From: Cytophagaceae bacterium
GTDB taxonomy: Bacteria; Bacteroidota; Bacteroidia; Cytophagales; Flexibacteraceae
DNA length: 64,000 bases
Direction of reading: 5' to 3'
Assembly: GCA_027490155.1 (NCBI GenBank)
Contig: JAIXYP010000069.1
Location: 62,001 to 126,000 of the forward strand
A program made the position numbers and the translations under genes. Positions 11,451 through 43,648 of the stretch are shown piece by piece. The first letter of the stretch is position 1. Each line of letters starts with the position of its first letter. The notes under the pieces were generated by a model that was not told the DNA's origin, ran no database searches, and worked only from the letters and a program-made list of their open reading frames with translations.

Positions 11451-11480
11451 ATAAAAAAGGCCTACCTCTCGGCAGACCTT
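11451..11480 (-). terminator. Rho-independent terminator of the KDO operon
   Basis: On the minus strand AAGGTCTGCC, loop GAGA, GGTAGGCCTT form a 10-pair stem with two G-U pairs, followed by TTTTATT. It lies 27 bases after the stop of the HAD gene, which fits the end of the kdsA transcript. Confidence 0.8.
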
Positions 11481-11507
11481 CAATCAAAAACATTAATGCG
11501 GATTTGC

Positions 11508-12248
11508 CTAGCCTAGGCTCACAAGTTGTTGTACTTGTTGCAGGCTGAGCTCTTCCATGCCATTAGGGCCAGCGGTCAAGAAACGGGTCTGGATGTCATT
11601 GCGCTGGCTAAGGAATTTGCTGTACTCACCTATGAATTTGACACGGCGCTCCATCGTTTCCGAGAAGTTGCCATTCAGGCCGATCAGCAGCTCACAGATC
11701 TCACGCACGGCATGGTTAGCTCCATCCATACCAGAGATGTAATCAGCATATTCGCGATGCCTGATAAGCTCCTTAAAGAGTGGGCTGCCACGTCTGTTGA
11801 CCAATAGTTTGAGGTTAACGCGGGAAGCGATGCTAAGATCCAGCACGTCATCCATCATAAAACCGATGTGGTGGTCGGCCATGCCTCGCTCACGGTTGAG
11901 CCAGTCGAGGGCCATGGTTTTGTGGTTGACCCTGAAGAACACAAAGTCATAATGGTCACGCAAGGCCAACGAAAACGATGCAGGGTTCAGCTCACCCGTC
12001 ACGATGCCCATGGTAGGCATACGGTCATGGCGCAGCCAACTGCTGAAGCGTAGCATGTTCAGCCCCATGGCGTCTGGCTCTGAAAAGCTACTGCCGAGGG
12101 TGGTGCTCGCTTTATGTCCGTTGTTGAACACACCATCCCAGTCGGCCAAGTAGGCACGGCAGGCGAGCTGTTTGCGGATCAAAACAGTAAGGGGCGAAAT
12201 AAATTCCGCCCCTAGCTGAGTGAACGATTGTTGCAGGTCTTGCAGCAT
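11508..12248 (-). CDS. HAD phosphatase, KdsC-like (probable KDO-8-phosphate phosphatase)
   Basis: A 246-residue HAD-superfamily protein. The catalytic DxD is in LADWDGVFNNG (D36, D38), the motif II threonine in GIVTGE (about T83), the motif III lysine in VNHKT (about K109), and the metal acids in MDDVLDL (D132, D133). The spacing and the GxxMLR segment resemble KdsC, the small capless phosphatase that removes phosphate from KDO-8-phosphate. Two differences are notable: MMDD replaces the usual GDD, and about 60-70 extra residues lie at the C-terminus beyond the KdsC core. It lies 72 bases downstream of the transaldolase-CBS gene and in the same operon as kdsA, and its assignment rests largely on that context. 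Confidence 0.72.
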   Translation of the reverse strand: MLQDLQQSFTQLGAEFISPLTVLIRKQLACRAYLADWDGVFNNGHKASTTLGSSFSEPDAMGLNMLRFSSWLRHDRMPTMGIVTGELNPASFSLALRDHYDFVFFRVNHKTMALDWLNRERGMADHHIGFMMDDVLDLSIASRVNLKLLVNRRGSPLFKELIRHREYADYISGMDGANHAVREICELLIGLNGNFSETMERRVKFIGEYSKFLSQRNDIQTRFLTAGPNGMEELSLQQVQQLVSLG

Positions 12249-12320
12249 GGACGTTTCGTAGGTAAACTATTGATGTATCAATTTGGGCACCATCCACCAA
12301 CAGGTGATTGGCGGCCCTAA

Positions 12321-13346
12321 CTAGCTAATGAGGTTCATCGCAACCAGATCCTGGACGTCCAGCATACCGACAGGTATTGGGCCGTCTGCAACGATCAAGT
12401 TGTCAACTTTGTGTTTTTTGATTAGCTCCACAGCATTGATCAGTAGGCTATCTGCTGTGATGGTCAATGGTGCGTTGAAGGTCAAATCACCGATTTTTTT
12501 GGTCAGTGCATTGGTGCCTTCTGTGCTGACCAAACGGCGCAGGTCACCATCGGTAAAGATACCTTTGATGTGGCCATTAGCCTCAACAACGGTAGCAGCA
12601 CCAAGGCCAGACTGTGACATCTGTACCAGAGCATCGCTAACAGTGCTATCGGCATTGACCAGTGGATTGCGTCCTTTGACGACTTCTTCAACCTTGATGG
12701 TCATCAGGGCGGTGTGCTCGAAGAACTGATCTGTACCCAGTTGGGTCAGGTTGTTGTCAGTGAGTTTTTTCATCACGCTCCAAGGCACAGTGATGGTATG
12801 CACACCGATGTTGATGGCGTTGCGTACATGCTCGGCATGGCGCACAGAGCTGAACATGATCTTGGACTTGTAGCCAAACTTGTTGACAGCGTCAACACAT
12901 TGGCGCACGAGCTCAAGTGCATCATGACCTTGGTCTTGCAGACGACCAACGAGTGGGCAGACGTAAGTCGCACCAGCAGCCATCGCCATATAGGCTTGTT
13001 GCAGGGTATAGACCAAGTGTACGTTGACCATCAGGCCTTCAGAGGTCAGCATGCGGCAAGCGCGGAGACCTTCGAGCGATACAGGGATTTTGAAAACGGT
13101 GGTTTTCTTGTCCATCCCGATGCTGATCAGGCGGTGCGCCTCAGCAACGATTTCCTCAGCAGTCTGGCCCAAGGCCTCGATCTGGAGAACGGGTACCATT
13201 TTGGCCAGTTTCAGGATCGTGCCGTCAATATCGGTCACGCCAGAGCGGTGCATAAAGGTTGGCGTGGTCGTGAGGCCTGCCAGAAAGCCTAGGCGGAAAG
13301 CGGCTTCTATTTCTTTCTGATCTACTGAGTCGAGGTAGAGTTCCAT
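12321..13346 (-). CDS. Transaldolase/F6P-aldolase domain fused to a KdsD-type CBS pair
   Basis: A 341-residue two-domain protein. Residues 1-215 are a TalC/FSA-type transaldolase barrel. It starts MELYLDSVDQ with D6, has TTTPT at 26-30, and carries the Schiff-base lysine K86 in VFKIPVSLEGL, in register with K85 of E. coli fructose-6-phosphate aldolase. PLVGRLQDQG follows, with leucine 132 where aldolases have tyrosine and transaldolases phenylalanine. Residues about 225-341 are two CBS motifs closely resembling the tail of arabinose-5-phosphate isomerase KdsD, including GIFTDGDLRRL and the ending LLINAVELIKKHKVDNLIVADG. No SIS isomerase domain is present. Placed between kdsA and a KdsC-like gene, it is inferred to supply or control arabinose-5-phosphate for KDO. 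This role is inference; a plain transaldolase is the alternative. Confidence 0.82.
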   Translation of the reverse strand: MELYLDSVDQKEIEAAFRLGFLAGLTTTPTFMHRSGVTDIDGTILKLAKMVPVLQIEALGQTAEEIVAEAHRLISIGMDKKTTVFKIPVSLEGLRACRMLTSEGLMVNVHLVYTLQQAYMAMAAGATYVCPLVGRLQDQGHDALELVRQCVDAVNKFGYKSKIMFSSVRHAEHVRNAINIGVHTITVPWSVMKKLTDNNLTQLGTDQFFEHTALMTIKVEEVVKGRNPLVNADSTVSDALVQMSQSGLGAATVVEANGHIKGIFTDGDLRRLVSTEGTNALTKKIGDLTFNAPLTITADSLLINAVELIKKHKVDNLIVADGPIPVGMLDVQDLVAMNLIS

Positions 13347-13466
13347 CGTACTTGTGTTACTGTTGTGATTGGTGATACTGGATCAGCAGGTTATTTGTGG
13401 CCAGCCGAAGGTATTAGGTGTGCCTTTTGGCCTTGATAGAATCATGGCCATGGCATTGGTGCTGGA

Positions 13467-14297
13467 CTAGCGGTAAGCAACCTCCACTTTGTGGAGCTCC
13501 AGCAATGGTTTCAAGAATTCCTCAAGGTGATCAATGTTGAGCTGGCTAGCAGCATCACATAGGGCCTCAGCAGGGTTAGGGTGGGTTTCGATGAATAGAC
13601 CATCAACACCAGCAGCCACACCAGCGCGGGCTAGGGTTGGCATCACCTCGCGGTTGCCGCCTTTTGGGTCTGCGGATGGGATGCCGTATTTGCGGATGCA
13701 GTGGGTGATGTCAAACACAACAGGGTAGCCGTGCTGGCGTAGGGCATAAAACGCCCTAGGATCAACGATTAGGTCATTGTAACCAAAGGTGTAGCCACGC
13801 TCAGTCAAGATCACTTGGTCGTTACCAGCTTCAACGCATTTGGCAGCAGGCTTATCCATGTTCGCAGGGTCTAGGAACTGGCCATGCTTGATGTTGACAA
13901 CTTTGCCTGTTTTGGCAGCTGCCACCGTGAGGGTGGTCTGCATACAGAGGTAAGCTGGGATCTGGAGAATATCCAGCACCTGAGCTGCTGGAGCAGCTTG
14001 CTCTGGGTAATGGATGTCACTGACAAGGCTAAAGCCGAACTGTGCTTTGACCTTAGCAAGGATTTCGAGGCCCTTGTCTAGGCCTGGGCCGTCATAATAC
14101 TTGGCAGACGAACGGTTGTCCTTCTGGAAAGAGCTTTTGTAGATAACAGGCAGGTTGAGGCGCTGCGAGATGGTAGCCAGCTTTTCGGCTACGGTCATCA
14201 TGATATGCTCGCTCTCGATGACACAAGGGCCAGAGATCAGGAACAAATCGTCCGATCCGCAACTAATGTCTCCTACCTTAACGATCTTTTTTGACAT
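13467..14297 (-). CDS. kdsA: 3-deoxy-8-phosphooctulonate synthase (KdsA)
   Basis: Condenses arabinose-5-phosphate with phosphoenolpyruvate to KDO-8-phosphate in the cytoplasm, the committed step for the lipid A-linked sugar KDO. The 276-residue barrel has the substrate loop KDNRSSAKYYDGPGL, matching KANRSS in E. coli KdsA and not the KPRTS of DAHP synthases. It has cysteine in SGPCVIES where E. coli has asparagine. With H in DITHCIRK, E in FIETHPNP and D in ALCDAA, this makes a complete metal site and indicates the metal-dependent class. The first gene of a three-gene minus-strand operon; a -7 box lies 19 bases upstream. Confidence 0.95.
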   Translation of the reverse strand: MSKKIVKVGDISCGSDDLFLISGPCVIESEHIMMTVAEKLATISQRLNLPVIYKSSFQKDNRSSAKYYDGPGLDKGLEILAKVKAQFGFSLVSDIHYPEQAAPAAQVLDILQIPAYLCMQTTLTVAAAKTGKVVNIKHGQFLDPANMDKPAAKCVEAGNDQVILTERGYTFGYNDLIVDPRAFYALRQHGYPVVFDITHCIRKYGIPSADPKGGNREVMPTLARAGVAAGVDGLFIETHPNPAEALCDAASQLNIDHLEEFLKPLLELHKVEVAYR

Positions 14298-14645
14298 ACT
14301 ACAGGATTATAGGCCGCAAAGGTAGTGATTTTTTCGGATGGGTGGGTGGAGGCTGTTTGTCGTATCAGCCCCAGATATTGGTCAGGCGAGTATTGCTTTC
14401 GCTAAATCCGTCTGCTTAGACCTAGGGTCTGAGTGTTAGGGAGCTAGTTGGTGCAGGGGAAGATGCATGATTGCTTTGGTTGGCGTATCGAAAGCCGGAC
14501 TTACTTTCGGTTTACCATGCTTTTGAACCTATGGATATTGCTTTTAAACCCCTAAGAGGATACCAAAATATCTAACCATAGAAACCTCAAGATCCAGTCA
14601 ACTCTTTGGCAACAAGACATTAGGTCATAGTCAGCCATTGCTGCT
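14298..14645. other. Gap of 348 bases between kdsA and the NFACT gene
   Basis: Apart from the kdsA promoter element at its left edge I see no gene. A CGAAAG...CTTTCG inverted repeat near 14490-14512 lacks a T-run. It is upstream of kdsA and downstream of the NFACT gene, both on the minus strand. Confidence 0.5.
14317..14324 (-). promoter_or_regulatory. Bacteroidota -7 element for the kdsA operon
   Basis: TACCTTTG on the minus strand fits TAnnTTTG exactly and lies 19 bases before the kdsA ATG, which implies a short leader of about 12 bases. No clear -33 TTG was found at the expected distance. Confidence 0.6.
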
Positions 14646-16283
14646 TTATTCGGGTTTGATGGCATTGGCCAAGACGACCGTTTCACGCTCCACAATCACA
14701 GAGCCAGGTGCACTGCCTTTGGCCTTACGGACAAACTTTTTGGGTGTCAGGATCACAGGGCAAAGTGGTTGGGTTTTCCCTTTGCTATACCAAACTGCTA
14801 GCCCCGCCGCATGGTCGATCACGGCCTGAGGTACAGGTTTGCCTGCCTGCACCTTGATCACGACATGGCTACCTGCAAACCCACGTGCATGGAGCCAAAG
14901 GTCATCTTTATAGGCATGTTTGAGGGTCAGGATGTCGTTGGCAGCAGCATTTTTGCCTACCCGGATCTCATAACCTGCGTGGACGAACCGTTTGTAGGGC
15001 AATGATTCCTCAGCATCACCTGTTTGGGCCTCGGGACGCTCTAGCTGGTGTTGTTGTAGCCATGACTTTAGGGCTTTACGTGTCACCAAGGCATCGATCT
15101 CATCCACCCAGGTCATGAGCTCCAGCGATAGGTTTTCTTTGACCTCTAGTTGGGTGCTGAGGTGGGTGAGCTCTAGCTTGCGATTACCTGCCTTGCGGTA
15201 CAACAGCTCTGCTTGTTTGTGGGGTGGAACCTCGGGCTTGAGGGTGATGACATATTCGGTTGGTTGGCCTGCTTCATCAGGGTGATACCAGTCAGCCACT
15301 ACCAGCTCAGTTTGGTGTGGTGTGATCAGATGGGCGTTGGCCATCAACAGATGCCCTACTTCCTCAGGGCTACGCTCGGTCCTGAGTGGTTGGAGCCGAT
15401 CGGTGATGCGACTAAGGTACTTTTCGGTTTGTTTGATCCGTTGTTTGACCTTGGCTTTGGCCGCCTCCTTCGCGATCGAAAGGCCATGCAGATGCAAAAA
15501 GTTATTGACATAGTCATTGAGGGCCGCCACTGGGTCCTGGTACGTTGCTGCCACTTCGCCTAGCGGAACCAGACTTAGATGGGGTTTGCCACCGTGCGTA
15601 ATGTGGTAATAGCTGCCTTCGTCAAATGCAGCCAATAGGGTCTGGATGAGGGTCCAGCGGTGGGTCTCACTGGCCTCAAGATACCCTTGTTCATTAAGCC
15701 AAGCGATAGGTAAGGGACCTAAAGTCGGCAGCCATTTATTGGGCTGATCTTGCAGCAACTGCCAAGCACCATATCCTAAATCAGGTGTCAGAGCTAGCTG
15801 ATCTGGTGTTAGCAGCAGGTCGGCTTCACGCTTGGTATGGAAGGACATAAGCCCTACCAAATGGGTGCCATGCTCATCTTTCTGATGCCGAAAAGCGACT
15901 GCATTGCTTCGTGGGCCATGCAGGCGAATGAAGAGGGTATAGGTCGTTTTGTGGCGTGTCTCCTGCAAAATGATCGAGAAACTACGGTCAAAAGGGGTGA
16001 CAACAATATCTACAACTTGGGCATCCAGCAGGGCATCAAACAGGTCAACCGAGTTGCGTTTGGCCCGAGCAAACTGTGTTGGGAACGAAACATGATACCC
16101 GCCTCCATGCCCATCTGCACCGTTGCCGAGCTGCGCCCTTAACCAAAGCTCATCCGATGCCGACCCAAAGCCCAAAACCAGCTCGTCCTTGTTCTGGCTG
16201 AAGGCCGCCAATAGCTTCAGCCCTACCCAGCGGCCACGTAGATGGTCAACAAGTTTGGTCAGGAAGTGGTAGTTGGTATGCAT
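14646..16283 (-). CDS. NFACT-domain protein, RqcH/Rqc2-like ribosome quality-control factor
   Basis: A 545-residue NFACT family protein. RqcH binds obstructed 50S subunits carrying peptidyl-tRNA and adds alanine tails that mark stalled peptides for degradation. The N-terminal NFACT-N domain (about 1-230) is followed by a lysine-rich coiled coil (about 255-400, ending KQAELLYRKAGNRKLELTHL). The C-terminal NFACT-R domain (about 440-545) contains DDLWLHARGFAGSHVVIK and LTPKKFVRKAKGSAPGSVIV. The D(L/I)W(L/F)H motif of this domain is intact. TACCTTTA at 16312-16319 (minus) is a probable -7 box 28 bases upstream of the ATG. Confidence 0.88.
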   Translation of the reverse strand: MHTNYHFLTKLVDHLRGRWVGLKLLAAFSQNKDELVLGFGSASDELWLRAQLGNGADGHGGGYHVSFPTQFARAKRNSVDLFDALLDAQVVDIVVTPFDRSFSIILQETRHKTTYTLFIRLHGPRSNAVAFRHQKDEHGTHLVGLMSFHTKREADLLLTPDQLALTPDLGYGAWQLLQDQPNKWLPTLGPLPIAWLNEQGYLEASETHRWTLIQTLLAAFDEGSYYHITHGGKPHLSLVPLGEVAATYQDPVAALNDYVNNFLHLHGLSIAKEAAKAKVKQRIKQTEKYLSRITDRLQPLRTERSPEEVGHLLMANAHLITPHQTELVVADWYHPDEAGQPTEYVITLKPEVPPHKQAELLYRKAGNRKLELTHLSTQLEVKENLSLELMTWVDEIDALVTRKALKSWLQQHQLERPEAQTGDAEESLPYKRFVHAGYEIRVGKNAAANDILTLKHAYKDDLWLHARGFAGSHVVIKVQAGKPVPQAVIDHAAGLAVWYSKGKTQPLCPVILTPKKFVRKAKGSAPGSVIVERETVVLANAIKPE

Positions 16284-42352: not shown

Positions 42353-43648
42353 CTATTGGTCAGCAATTTGGCGCACGCCAATTACGCGATGCAGCCCGCT
42401 CATCACGATCTGTGTAGCCCCAGCGTGTTTCTGGCAATAGGCCGATGCTGCCTCGCCAGCGGCTTTGCAGGCAACCTTGTCTGTTAACAGGCTAACAAGC
42501 TGGCTAGTGGCTTGGGCCACCGTGCCGCAGCTGAAAGCGCCACCTTGCCGCAATAAGTCAGTTGCCTCTTTAAACTTCCGGAACTTGGGTTTGCCAAACA
42601 GGACGGGTACGCTATAGACCGCCGCCTCTAGGATGTTGTGCAGGCCACTCCCGTAAGCACCACCAACCCAGGCGATGTCGGCATATTTGTAGATACTGCT
42701 CAGCATGCCAATGTTGTCGATGATCATCAGGTTGGCAGCGGTTGCGGTTTCGGGCAGTGCGGCTGAGTAGCGCAGGCTTTGGTAACCTGGCCAGTTATCC
42801 AGCTCGGCTAGGTGGTCTGGTGTTAACTCATGTGGGGCAACGATAACTTTGGGACGGATCGCTTGGGGCAAAGCAAGGACGGCTTCCAACACCACCTTGA
42901 TGTCCATTGGCCAAGCAGAGCCCAGCACCAAAACTTTGCCATCCCCTTTGAACGTATTGATCAGGGGCAATTTGCCGACACTTTCGGCAATCTGGATTAC
43001 ACGATCGAAACGGGTGTCGCCTGCCACCTCGGTATGGGGCATCTGGATGCGCCGCAGGAGACGGGCCGAGGCTTCGTCTTGGGTATAAATCAGGCTAAAG
43101 CTAGATAGGACCAACCGCATAAACCGCCCCCATGGTTTGAAGAAGATCTGGTTTGGCCTAAAGATGGCCGAAAAGCTAATGGCTGGGATGCCACGGTCCC
43201 GTAGCTCCAGCAAATAGAATGGCCAGAATTCGTACTTGACAAACAATGCGAGATCTGGGCGGACCACGTTTAGGAAACGTACGCTGTTTTCGGGCGAGTC
43301 GGACGGTAAATAGGTCACGACATCGGCCCCTGCATAGTTTTTCCGGATCAGGTAGCCAGAGGGCGAAAAGAAGGTCAAGACGATGCCCCAAGTAGGGTAC
43401 TGCTCTTTAAATGCCTCGATGACGGGGCGTGCCTGCTCAAACTCGCCCAAGGAGGCTGCATGAAACCAGGCGACACGCCCAGGCAAGGTGCTGCGGCCTC
43501 GCTCTAGCTGTTGCCAGAGCTCGTTGTCACGGCCGTCCACCCAAGCCTTTGCCTTTTGGTGACCAGCGCCAGCCACAAGCTTGATCGCGGCCGGATAGAC
43601 TCGCGAAAACGCCCGATAGACCCAATATCCTGTACTTGTTTTTGCCAC
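42353..43648 (-). CDS. waaA: 3-deoxy-D-manno-octulosonic acid transferase (WaaA/KdtA)
   Basis: Transfers KDO from CMP-KDO to lipid A precursor at the inner membrane. The 431-residue GT-B enzyme has the catalytic glutamate in WFHAASLGEFEQARP, the membrane-contact segment FVKYEFWPFYLLELRDRGIP, VAGDTRFDR in the linker and the nucleotide-binding end VGGAYGSGLHNILEAAVYSVP. The length is typical. It proves that this organism makes KDO-bearing lipid A, which supports the reading of the kdsA operon at 11.5-14.3 kb. Confidence 0.95.
   Translation of the reverse strand: MAKTSTGYWVYRAFSRVYPAAIKLVAGAGHQKAKAWVDGRDNELWQQLERGRSTLPGRVAWFHAASLGEFEQARPVIEAFKEQYPTWGIVLTFFSPSGYLIRKNYAGADVVTYLPSDSPENSVRFLNVVRPDLALFVKYEFWPFYLLELRDRGIPAISFSAIFRPNQIFFKPWGRFMRLVLSSFSLIYTQDEASARLLRRIQMPHTEVAGDTRFDRVIQIAESVGKLPLINTFKGDGKVLVLGSAWPMDIKVVLEAVLALPQAIRPKVIVAPHELTPDHLAELDNWPGYQSLRYSAALPETATAANLMIIDNIGMLSSIYKYADIAWVGGAYGSGLHNILEAAVYSVPVLFGKPKFRKFKEATDLLRQGGAFSCGTVAQATSQLVSLLTDKVACKAAGEAASAYCQKHAGATQIVMSGLHRVIGVRQIADQ

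Follow-up and report, generated by a model that had tools for sequence, protein, structure and literature searches.

A transaldolase-CBS fusion encoded beside kdsA as a likely replacement for the arabinose 5-phosphate isomerase KdsD

The kdsA locus and its gene products

Kdo, a sugar of the outer membrane, is built from arabinose 5-phosphate, and its synthesis usually begins with KdsD. The stretch of DNA analyzed here, hereafter the window, comprises 64,000 nucleotides of contig JAIXYP010000069.1 from a Cytophagaceae bacterium (assembly GCA_027490155.1) whose genome is labeled G000 in the genome comparisons. On its minus strand, kdsA, a gene for a two-domain fusion protein and a HAD gene form one run with intergenic gaps of 120 and 72 bases, the reading frames and strand being as the original prediction, made without database searches, had given them. 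The features are listed below in window coordinates; the waaA-type domain was found at G000:C25:105001-105507 and then converted.

13467-14297, minus strand: kdsA (Kdo 8-phosphate synthase); belongs to a separate subfamily, KdsA-F, which is found together with the fusion; matches TIGR01362
12321-13346, minus strand: fusion of a transaldolase/FSA barrel and a CBS pair, 341 amino acids (Pfam, NCBIfam, AlphaFold2, Foldseek); proposed supplier of D-arabinose 5-phosphate (A5P)
12699-13346, minus strand: TAL/FSA-family TIM barrel of the fusion, residues 1-216 (Pfam TAL_FSA)
13089-13091, minus strand: codon of the Schiff-base Lys86 of the fusion
12342-12698, minus strand: CBS pair of the fusion, residues 217-335, closest to the KdsD CBS pair
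11508-12248, minus strand: KdsC-like HAD gene, candidate Kdo 8-phosphate phosphatase (34 bits to the KdsC model)
14317-14324, minus strand: TACCTTTG, resembling the -7 promoter element of Bacteroidota; it lies 19 nt ahead of kdsA
11456-11481, minus strand: terminator-like hairpin beyond the 3' end of the HAD gene
43001-43507, minus strand: N-terminal domain of a waaA-type Kdo transferase in the same window (PF04413, 152 bits)

One promoter element and one terminator had also been claimed for the operon, and this held only in part. A sequence resembling the Bacteroidota -7 box, TACCTTTG, and a hairpin do exist, but the three terminator-like hairpins found in the region are about as many as in shuffled sequences (mean 2.7). 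These signals are weaker than first stated.

Over residues 3-222 the fusion protein matches Pfam TAL_FSA (E 4e-37); it also matches CBS, with two stretches, and scores 160.4 bits against NCBIfam fsa_talC_mipB (TIGR00875), below the cut-off of 245.95. Pfam found no SIS domain in it, TAL_FSA and CBS being the only matches, and the kpsF model (TIGR00393) reached 77 bits on the CBS part only (positions 154-260). The AlphaFold2 model has a mean pLDDT of 91, and Foldseek places it closest, among PDB entries, to two TalC-type transaldolases, 1vpx and 3r8r, at TM-scores (by target) of 0.84-0.91. Residue K86 aligns with residue 86 of the Thermoplasma acidophilum transaldolase, of which a Lys86Ala variant is in the PDB. 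The claim of an FSA/TalC barrel with a Schiff-base lysine in place of the SIS domain is thus upheld by Pfam, alignment and Foldseek.

The active site was compared across 80 named relatives, all full-length fusions, which are the best of 539 stretches encoding relatives in one scan of GTDB contigs. Residues D6, T28, E57, K86, N108, H110, L132, R135, S166, S167 and R169 are invariant in all 80, so that the N28, T110 and F132 of transaldolases are replaced throughout by T, H and L. The comparison enzymes, five solved sequences (two of them from Thermus thermophilus) and the separately encoded, ordinary TalC of G000 (L179), have N, T and F at these positions; in FSA, position 132 is Y. The fusion is a TAL/FSA-family barrel that retains the Schiff-base lysine within an altered but invariant active site. 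No residue roles that could be used for this active site were found in the relevant sections of PMC7767278 and PMC8208507. The possibility that the fusion is the only transaldolase of its genome is ruled out by L179; further barrel matches, at least one per genome, occur in 54 of the 55 fusion genomes of the order. The fusion is also encoded by a cultured organism, Thermonema rossianum DSM 10300 (locus L095).

The top 50 Foldseek matches were all barrels, so the assessment of the CBS half rests on sequence. It contains the motif GIFTDGDLRRL, and its three best matches among solved structures are the A5P isomerases 3k2v, 4o9k and 3fna (E 2e-11 to 4e-11; next match, 5e-5). A profile of KdsD CBS pairs scored 71-86 bits on the CBS pairs of 16 fusions and 39-62 bits on 16 other CBS proteins, all 16 fusions ranking higher. 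The reverse profile was less clean, with some KdsD rows ranking below other CBS pairs. The pair is closer to that of KdsD than to those of the other CBS proteins tested, and the KdsD-like character originally assigned to it held. It was probably inherited from a KdsD-like ancestor, an inference resting on sequence alone; regulation through it is likewise inferred.

The window kdsA passes the cut-offs of TIGR01362 (329.8 bits; cut-off 314) and PRK05198 (341.7; cut-off 242) and falls below that of PRK12457 (272 versus 457 bits). Complete KdsA-F genes outside its genus are 65-78% identical to it, and the KdsA of KdsD genomes 42-50%. The KANRS/T and LxRQT motifs of the classical KdsA of the order are altered, with D and M in 32/32 KdsA-F rows at two positions that are A and R in 19/19 usable classical rows. 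(The classical row L198, read in the wrong frame, was left out of these counts, and the KdsA-F of genome G010 entered twice; L198 and the repeated row were omitted from the tree.) Close to the substrate motif, KdsA-F departs from classical KdsA at conserved residues: A60D, R119M, K138H and a loop near 202-210.

Against the KdsC model, whose cut-off is 208 bits, the HAD protein reaches only 34.4, and Pfam returns nothing for it at E 0.01; no match above the KdsC cut-off was found anywhere in the genome. Its HAD motifs are conserved among 71 relatives, although these were themselves picked by motif I and only the remaining motifs are informative. It may be a weakly KdsC-like Kdo 8-phosphate phosphatase, inferred from these matches only. 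The genome also encodes kdsB and a waaA-type gene, and in one family (f18) kdsB directly precedes the kdsA-fusion pair in 8/8 fusion genomes.

Distribution of the fusion, KdsD and KdsA-F

No KdsD was found in the genome of the window, which is rated 100% complete: TIGR00393 gave no match above its cut-off, and the SIS matches at E 0.001 are GlmS-, GmhA- and MurQ-like, named by their characteristic features. An undetected KdsD is rejected on the basis of this genome-wide SIS search. Loss in an assembly gap is likewise rejected, given the completeness rating and the recurrence of the pattern in 52 of 122 KdsA genomes.

In a sample of 148 genomes of the order, the fusion occurs in 55 (52 full length, three fragments) and KdsD in 71, with both in two and neither in 24 (Fisher p 8e-19, kinship ignored). 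Restricting the sample to the 122 genomes with KdsA leaves 52 with the fusion only, 67 with KdsD only, two with both and one with neither. In the sample of 148, seven families hold both states, and exactly one of the two is present in 66/69 of their genomes. Across a phylum sample of 238, KdsD is found in 0/4 fusion genomes versus 170/234 others; that only four fusion genomes appear here is perhaps due to the requirement of at least 90% completeness. KdsD is also present in 4/80 named fusion genomes, which partly repeat the order sample, and in 0/4 fusion records labeled Deltaproteobacteria/Desulfobacteraceae; in one case (L152/G174) fusion and KdsD lie 41 kb apart on one contig. Leaving kinship aside, the fusion and KdsD are almost completely mutually exclusive.

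The kdsA-F and fusion genes are same-strand neighbors (gap below 2.5 kb) in 31 of 52 genomes of the order and not neighbors in 21, the remaining three of the 55 fusion genomes (G082, G109 and G136) having no intact pair. Among the 80 named loci, 51 have kdsA and 56 have the HAD gene within 500 bases of the fusion. Because of these neighbor counts, the kdsA-fusion-HAD arrangement is far beyond chance. It should be noted that the exclusion and neighbor counts for the order were drawn from match lists of limited length. The genomic checks proposed with the original prediction came out in its favor: a search for an SIS-domain A5P isomerase anywhere in the genome found none, the fusion is anti-correlated with KdsD, and it is linked to kdsA in many genera.

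Two genomes present a natural swap. In G029 (one contig) and G059, the genes for KdsA-F, the HAD protein and KdsB sit a few kb or less apart and the fusion is missing; both genomes encode KdsD elsewhere and have no classical KdsA. In the KdsA tree their KdsA-F sequences are nested inside the fusion clade, beside G010. KdsA-F is here paired with KdsD in the absence of the fusion, and its substrate is therefore most likely A5P, the product of KdsD. This is inferred from gene co-occurrence, and given the changes near the substrate motif a modified substrate is not excluded. Other combinations include G069, which carries two sets (here, as in the four named genomes with both fusion and KdsD, redundancy or two products may be the reason), G120 with KdsD and KdsA-F (4% contamination), and G133, where KdsA-F is present near a contig end and neither fusion nor KdsD was found. 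KdsA-F also occurs in 43 of 46 genomes with KdnB, of the 8-amino-Kdo pathway. As a separate observation, eight genomes with neither KdsD nor the transaldolase-type fusion have a gene that joins an Rpe barrel to CBS, located next to kdsC and a DAHP-synthase-type gene.

Proposed A5P supply and rival explanations

We consider it likely that the fusion replaces KdsD and supplies A5P by Schiff-base aldol chemistry; product, route and regulation are inferred, without biochemistry. In this model the barrel would make A5P, KdsA-F would condense it with PEP to Kdo 8-phosphate, the HAD protein would dephosphorylate that product, and KdsB and WaaA, encoded elsewhere, would finish the pathway. Lys86 is predicted to bind a two-carbon unit, glycolaldehyde, as a Schiff base; the enamine would add to G3P held by Arg135 and Arg169, giving A5P. 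The two-carbon unit may come from free glycolaldehyde, or from R5P that is cleaved and re-joined on the enzyme with C2 inverted (a retro-aldol/aldol R5P 2-epimerase), and the CBS pair may sense a nucleotide or end product. The original proposal of a non-orthologous KdsD replacement acting by aldol chemistry is supported by genomics, the reaction itself being inferred. Fructose 6-phosphate, suggested there as a substrate, would by this chemistry give dihydroxyacetone and G3P, not A5P. Direct Schiff-base isomerization of Ru5P was rejected by reasoning, as an imine at C2 does not yield an aldose that bears a hydroxyl there.

One rival is that the fusion is a transaldolase/FSA of the ordinary kind under CBS regulation, keeping sugar phosphates around LPS synthesis in balance (e.g., sedoheptulose 7-phosphate for heptose), and that GlmS or some other isomerase makes A5P as a side reaction. 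Its barrel does belong to the TAL/FSA family, a GlmS-like gene is present in the genome, and the GFATs of several eukaryotes rescue E. coli lacking both A5P isomerases (PMC11301363); most eukaryotic GFATs tested make A5P, although one did not, and by analogy an SIS enzyme such as GlmS might in principle be a source. Against this stand the additional barrels of the fusion genomes, including L179, and the uniform replacement of three residues conserved in the ordinary enzymes compared; the exclusion of KdsD and the position by kdsA are left unexplained. Moreover, E. coli without A5P needs KdsD or GutQ to grow (PMC11301363), and E. coli has GlmS. We regard this rival as very unlikely. Another possibility is that the 3-deoxy-ulosonate made by KdsA-F and the fusion is a different one: the fusion would supply some other aldose phosphate, and the specificity of KdsA-F would have shifted accordingly. 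The KdsA-F-specific changes, the coexistence of two sets in G069 and the frequency of KdsA-F in KdnB genomes speak for it; the pairing of KdsA-F with KdsD in G029 and G059 and the kdsB and waaA-type genes in the window's genome speak against it, as does the fact that KdnA and KdnB act after Kdo is made and need no other aldose. It appears unlikely.

Within the A5P reading, the addition of free glycolaldehyde to G3P would resemble the reaction of FsaA, which makes only A5P from these substrates (PMC9947464; PMC6298115), an in vitro activity that the original prediction had stated correctly. The arginines assigned to the phosphate side are kept while other active-site residues are changed. However, no glycolaldehyde source is evident among the three operon genes (the flanks of other loci were outside the survey), and Kdo demand is stoichiometric. 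Since that demand is large and no operon gene resembles such a source, we lean slightly toward R5P 2-epimerization, which is inferred to be more economical, and hold the free-glycolaldehyde route to be a little less probable. A bolder reading, for which the balance tips modestly in favor, is that the fusion represents a class of enzyme not known before, either an R5P/A5P 2-epimerase or an A5P synthase, acting via an enzyme-bound glycolaldehyde enamine, and that unrelated sugar-phosphate barrels (of transaldolase type here, of Rpe type in other genomes) have taken the place of the SIS domain of KdsD on more than one occasion while a KdsD-type CBS regulator was kept.

Relation to known enzymes and significance

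The fusion resembles KdsD/KpsF/GutQ, which combine SIS with a CBS pair, in genomic role, pathway neighbors and type of C-terminal CBS pair, but lacks the SIS domain and has a TAL/FSA barrel with a Schiff-base lysine instead. With TalC/FSA enzymes (Thermotoga 1vpx, B. subtilis 3r8r, T. acidophilum 3s0c and E. coli FsaA, which can form A5P) it shares the fold and Lys86, Asp6, Glu57, Asn108, Arg135 and Arg169, and it differs in N28T, T110H and F132L, the CBS pair and the run with kdsA. TalB F178Y makes both A5P and R5P (PMC9947464). The same aldol route linking glycolaldehyde, G3P and A5P underlies a synthetic glycolaldehyde assimilation pathway (FsaA + KdsD; PMC9947464, PMC6298115), but there an engineered system carries A5P onward to Ru5P, whereas the natural direction proposed for the fusion is A5P formation for Kdo. 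The GFAT side activity (PMC11301363) is also a non-KdsD source of A5P but, unlike the fusion, is SIS-type, proceeds by Ru5P isomerization and has no kdsA link. We found no description of a transaldolase-CBS fusion beside kdsA, or as an A5P source, in the open-access literature searched.

If this interpretation is true, LPS pathway predictions would be corrected for part of the Cytophagales and neighboring groups, the FSA/A5P reaction known from biocatalysis would gain a biological role, and enzymes would become available for pentose or glycolaldehyde engineering. It would also mean that an enzyme of an essential pathway has been exchanged for a non-orthologous one. A5P appears to be made in some environmental Bacteroidota, most of which lack KdsD, by an aldolase-type enzyme with a regulatory domain.

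Operon structure and Kdo genes of the genome

The fusion is encoded by the middle gene of a three-gene run with intergenic gaps of 120 and 72 bases:

13467-14297, minus strand: kdsA, first gene of the run
12321-13346, minus strand: fusion protein (341 aa), middle gene
11508-12248, minus strand: HAD protein (246 aa), third gene

An NFACT/RqcH-family gene lies upstream of the operon (14646-16283, minus strand). Pfam identifies a transaldolase/FSA barrel in the N-terminal part of the fusion and a CBS pair behind it; the nearest solved structures to the barrel are the TalC-type transaldolases 1vpx and 3r8r, and the nearest match of the CBS pair is to the CBS domains of D-arabinose 5-phosphate (A5P) isomerases. 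The AlphaFold2 model (alignment of 39 sequences) has a mean pLDDT of 91, and its barrel matches transaldolases among the best structural hits with TM-scores, by target, of 0.84-0.91. The fusion of the closest named record, labelled Cytophagaceae (L084), is 99% identical, from which the order sampled below is inferred to be Cytophagales.

At 3.99 Mb in 69 contigs, the window's genome is rated 100% complete. Its four SIS matches are spread over three genes: a 627-aa frame with two SIS domains, interpreted as GlmS, and two genes (L003 and L004) that we take to be GmhA- and MurQ-like from features of their translations. Neither a TIGR00393 match for the SIS-domain isomerase KdsD nor KdsC was found above cut-off in this genome, while kdsB is located on contig 22 and a waaA-type gene at 43001-43507 of the window. 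An A5P-supplying gene and a classical KdsC are thus the sole gaps among the Kdo genes sought.

Distribution of the fusion, KdsD and KdsA-F

The original prediction, that the fusion supplies A5P in place of KdsD, holds on genomic evidence, which does not settle the exact reaction. Among 148 Cytophagales genomes, the fusion is present in 55 (52 full length; fragments in G051, G082 and G136) and KdsD, above cut-off, in 71, with both in two genomes and neither in 24 (Fisher p 8e-19, uncorrected for kinship). Both states occur in 7 of 22 families, and 66 of the 69 genomes in those families have exactly one source. When the comparison is restricted to the 122 genomes with either class of KdsA, 52 contain the fusion only, 67 KdsD only, two both (G069 and G096) and one neither (G133, whose kdsA sits close to a contig end). 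In a phylum sample of 238 genomes, KdsD is absent from all four with the fusion and present in 170 of the 234 without it. A scan of GTDB contigs recovered 539 stretches encoding relatives, and the best 80, which partly overlap the order sample, were retained; KdsD was found in the genomes of 2/30 and 2/50 of these loci. Among the labels of their records are Cytophagales, Flammeovirgaceae, Chitinophagaceae, Crocinitomicaceae and Bacteroidales; a further four records, labelled Deltaproteobacteria/Desulfobacteraceae, contain the kdsA-fusion-HAD run and lack KdsD.

Within 500 bases of the fusion and on the same strand, kdsA is found in 51 and the HAD gene in 56 of the 80 loci; it should be noted that truncation of some loci by contig ends affects these counts. 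Across the order, kdsA of the subfamily described below (kdsA-F) adjoins the fusion in 31 of 52 genomes compared. In family f18, kdsB directly precedes kdsA in 8/8 fusion genomes, and one locus (L170) has the order kdsB-kdsA-fusion-HAD. Even when unlinked, the KdsA proteins of fusion genomes form one subfamily (KdsA-F), 65-78% identical to the window's KdsA outside its genus, whereas those of KdsD genomes mostly belong to a second class (42-50%). KdsA-F is present in 54/55 fusion genomes and classical KdsA in 66/71 KdsD genomes, and a tree of 51 KdsA rows separates the classes by a long branch (support 100/100).

Active site, CBS pair and proposed chemistry

Compared with Thermoplasma acidophilum transaldolase, the fusion retains Asp6, Glu57 (Glu60 there), Lys86, Asn108, Arg135 and Arg169 and carries the replacements N28T, T110H and F132L. 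All of these residues are identical in 80/80 named relatives, which marks the barrel as conserved and, judged from sequence, specialised rather than an ordinary transaldolase. Position 130 is C in 75 relatives and T in five. An ordinary TalC is encoded separately in the window's genome (L179). PDB titles connect Lys86 and Glu60/Phe132 with studies of the dihydroxyacetone Schiff base and glyceraldehyde 3-phosphate (G3P). On our assignment of residues to donor and acceptor sides, the retained phosphate-side arginines together with the changes elsewhere fit G3P, which is phosphorylated, as the acceptor and a donor that is not dihydroxyacetone.

Two reactions might yield A5P. Escherichia coli FsaA converts glycolaldehyde and G3P to A5P only (PMC9947464, PMC6298115), and TalB F178Y yields both A5P and ribose 5-phosphate (R5P) (PMC9947464); we take TalB position 178 to be Phe132 of the T. 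acidophilum enzyme, which is Leu in the fusion. By reversibility, such a barrel could also convert R5P to A5P via a bound glycolaldehyde enamine. Since free glycolaldehyde is scarce and no gene of the three-gene run resembles a source of it, we lean slightly, by inference, towards 2-epimerisation of R5P over use of free glycolaldehyde.

The CBS pair likely derives from a KdsD-like protein, but this is not proven. With a profile built from the CBS pairs of KdsD, 16 fusion CBS pairs reach 71-86 bits, compared with 39-62 bits for 16 further CBS proteins from the order; the reverse profile places the best KdsD rows on top, with weaker KdsD rows intermixed with other CBS pairs.

Exceptional genomes and related pathways

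In two genomes, G029 (a single contig) and G059, the genes for KdsA-F, the HAD protein and KdsB lie a few kb apart at most and KdsD is encoded elsewhere; both genomes lack the fusion and classical KdsA. Their KdsA-F nests in the fusion clade next to that of G010, a member of the same family with the fusion and without KdsD. This pairing implies that KdsA-F most likely consumes the product of KdsD, A5P. KdsA-F and KdsD are likewise paired in G120, a weaker case because of its contamination estimate of 4%.

KdsA-F differs from classical KdsA by A60D and R119M (32/32 KdsA-F versus 19/19 usable classical rows), by K138H (K in 18 classical rows, R in one) and in the loop around 202-210. In the window's protein and its relatives, KDNRSS and LCMQT replace KANRS/T and LCRQT. 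In Neisseria KdsA, the KANR motif, which we take to be the counterpart of the altered motif, is reported to contact an intermediate-mimicking inhibitor through its Asn and Arg (PMC6650799). Both altered motifs also occur in G029 and G120, so a KdsA carrying them can coexist with KdsD as the source. No biochemical data on the fusion or KdsA-F proteins were found in the literature searched. A second product remains conceivable, as G069 (L168:5891-8897 and L169:391-2361) has KdsD, classical KdsA and a KdsC-type gene in one cluster with KdsA-F and the fusion elsewhere, and in G174 (loci L152, L175 and L176) a distance of 41 kb on a single contig separates KdsD from the fusion.

KdnA and KdnB, enzymes of 8-amino-3,8-dideoxy-Kdo synthesis, are encoded near the fusion in 14 of the 80 loci; stretches noted for them are:

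L166:7763-10103: KdnA/KdnB, matching PDB 5k8b and 5k8c (E about 1e-128)
L176:1687-4032: KdnA/KdnB
L177:2239-4573: KdnA/KdnB

KdsA-F is present in 43/46 genomes of the order with KdnB (E 1e-60), a threshold at which the window's genome gives no KdnB match. Cytophagales may thus often make 8-amino-Kdo. The nine sampled genomes of family f21 (0.7-1.8 Mb) have no match to the fusion, KdsA or KdsB and no KdsD over cut-off, and therefore probably lack Kdo. Family f8 (10 genomes, 1.1-1.6 Mb) keeps KdsB in 9/10 and KdsC in 9/10.

Eight of the 24 genomes with neither source contain a tight run of a different fusion, a DAHP-synthase-type gene and kdsC:

L218:3017-5498: Rpe-CBS fusion run
L219:3655-6148: Rpe-CBS fusion run
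L221:4149-6633: Rpe-CBS fusion run
L224, L225, L226 (partial), L227, L228: further loci with the run

The run was not seen in stretches L220, L222, L223 (from fusion genome G028), L229 and L231 (taken around kdsB); L230 is truncated by a contig end. At E 0.001, nothing in G009 matches KdsA except the DAHP-synthase-type gene, which leaves the Kdo8P-making enzyme there unexplained. In the three fusions scanned, the barrel belongs to the ribulose-phosphate 3-epimerase family (Pfam E 4e-22 to 2e-25) and the best NCBIfam match of the CBS pair is KpsF (41-47 bits); the remaining five were identified by tblastn match to these. It is possible that the catalytic half of KdsD has been exchanged more than once.
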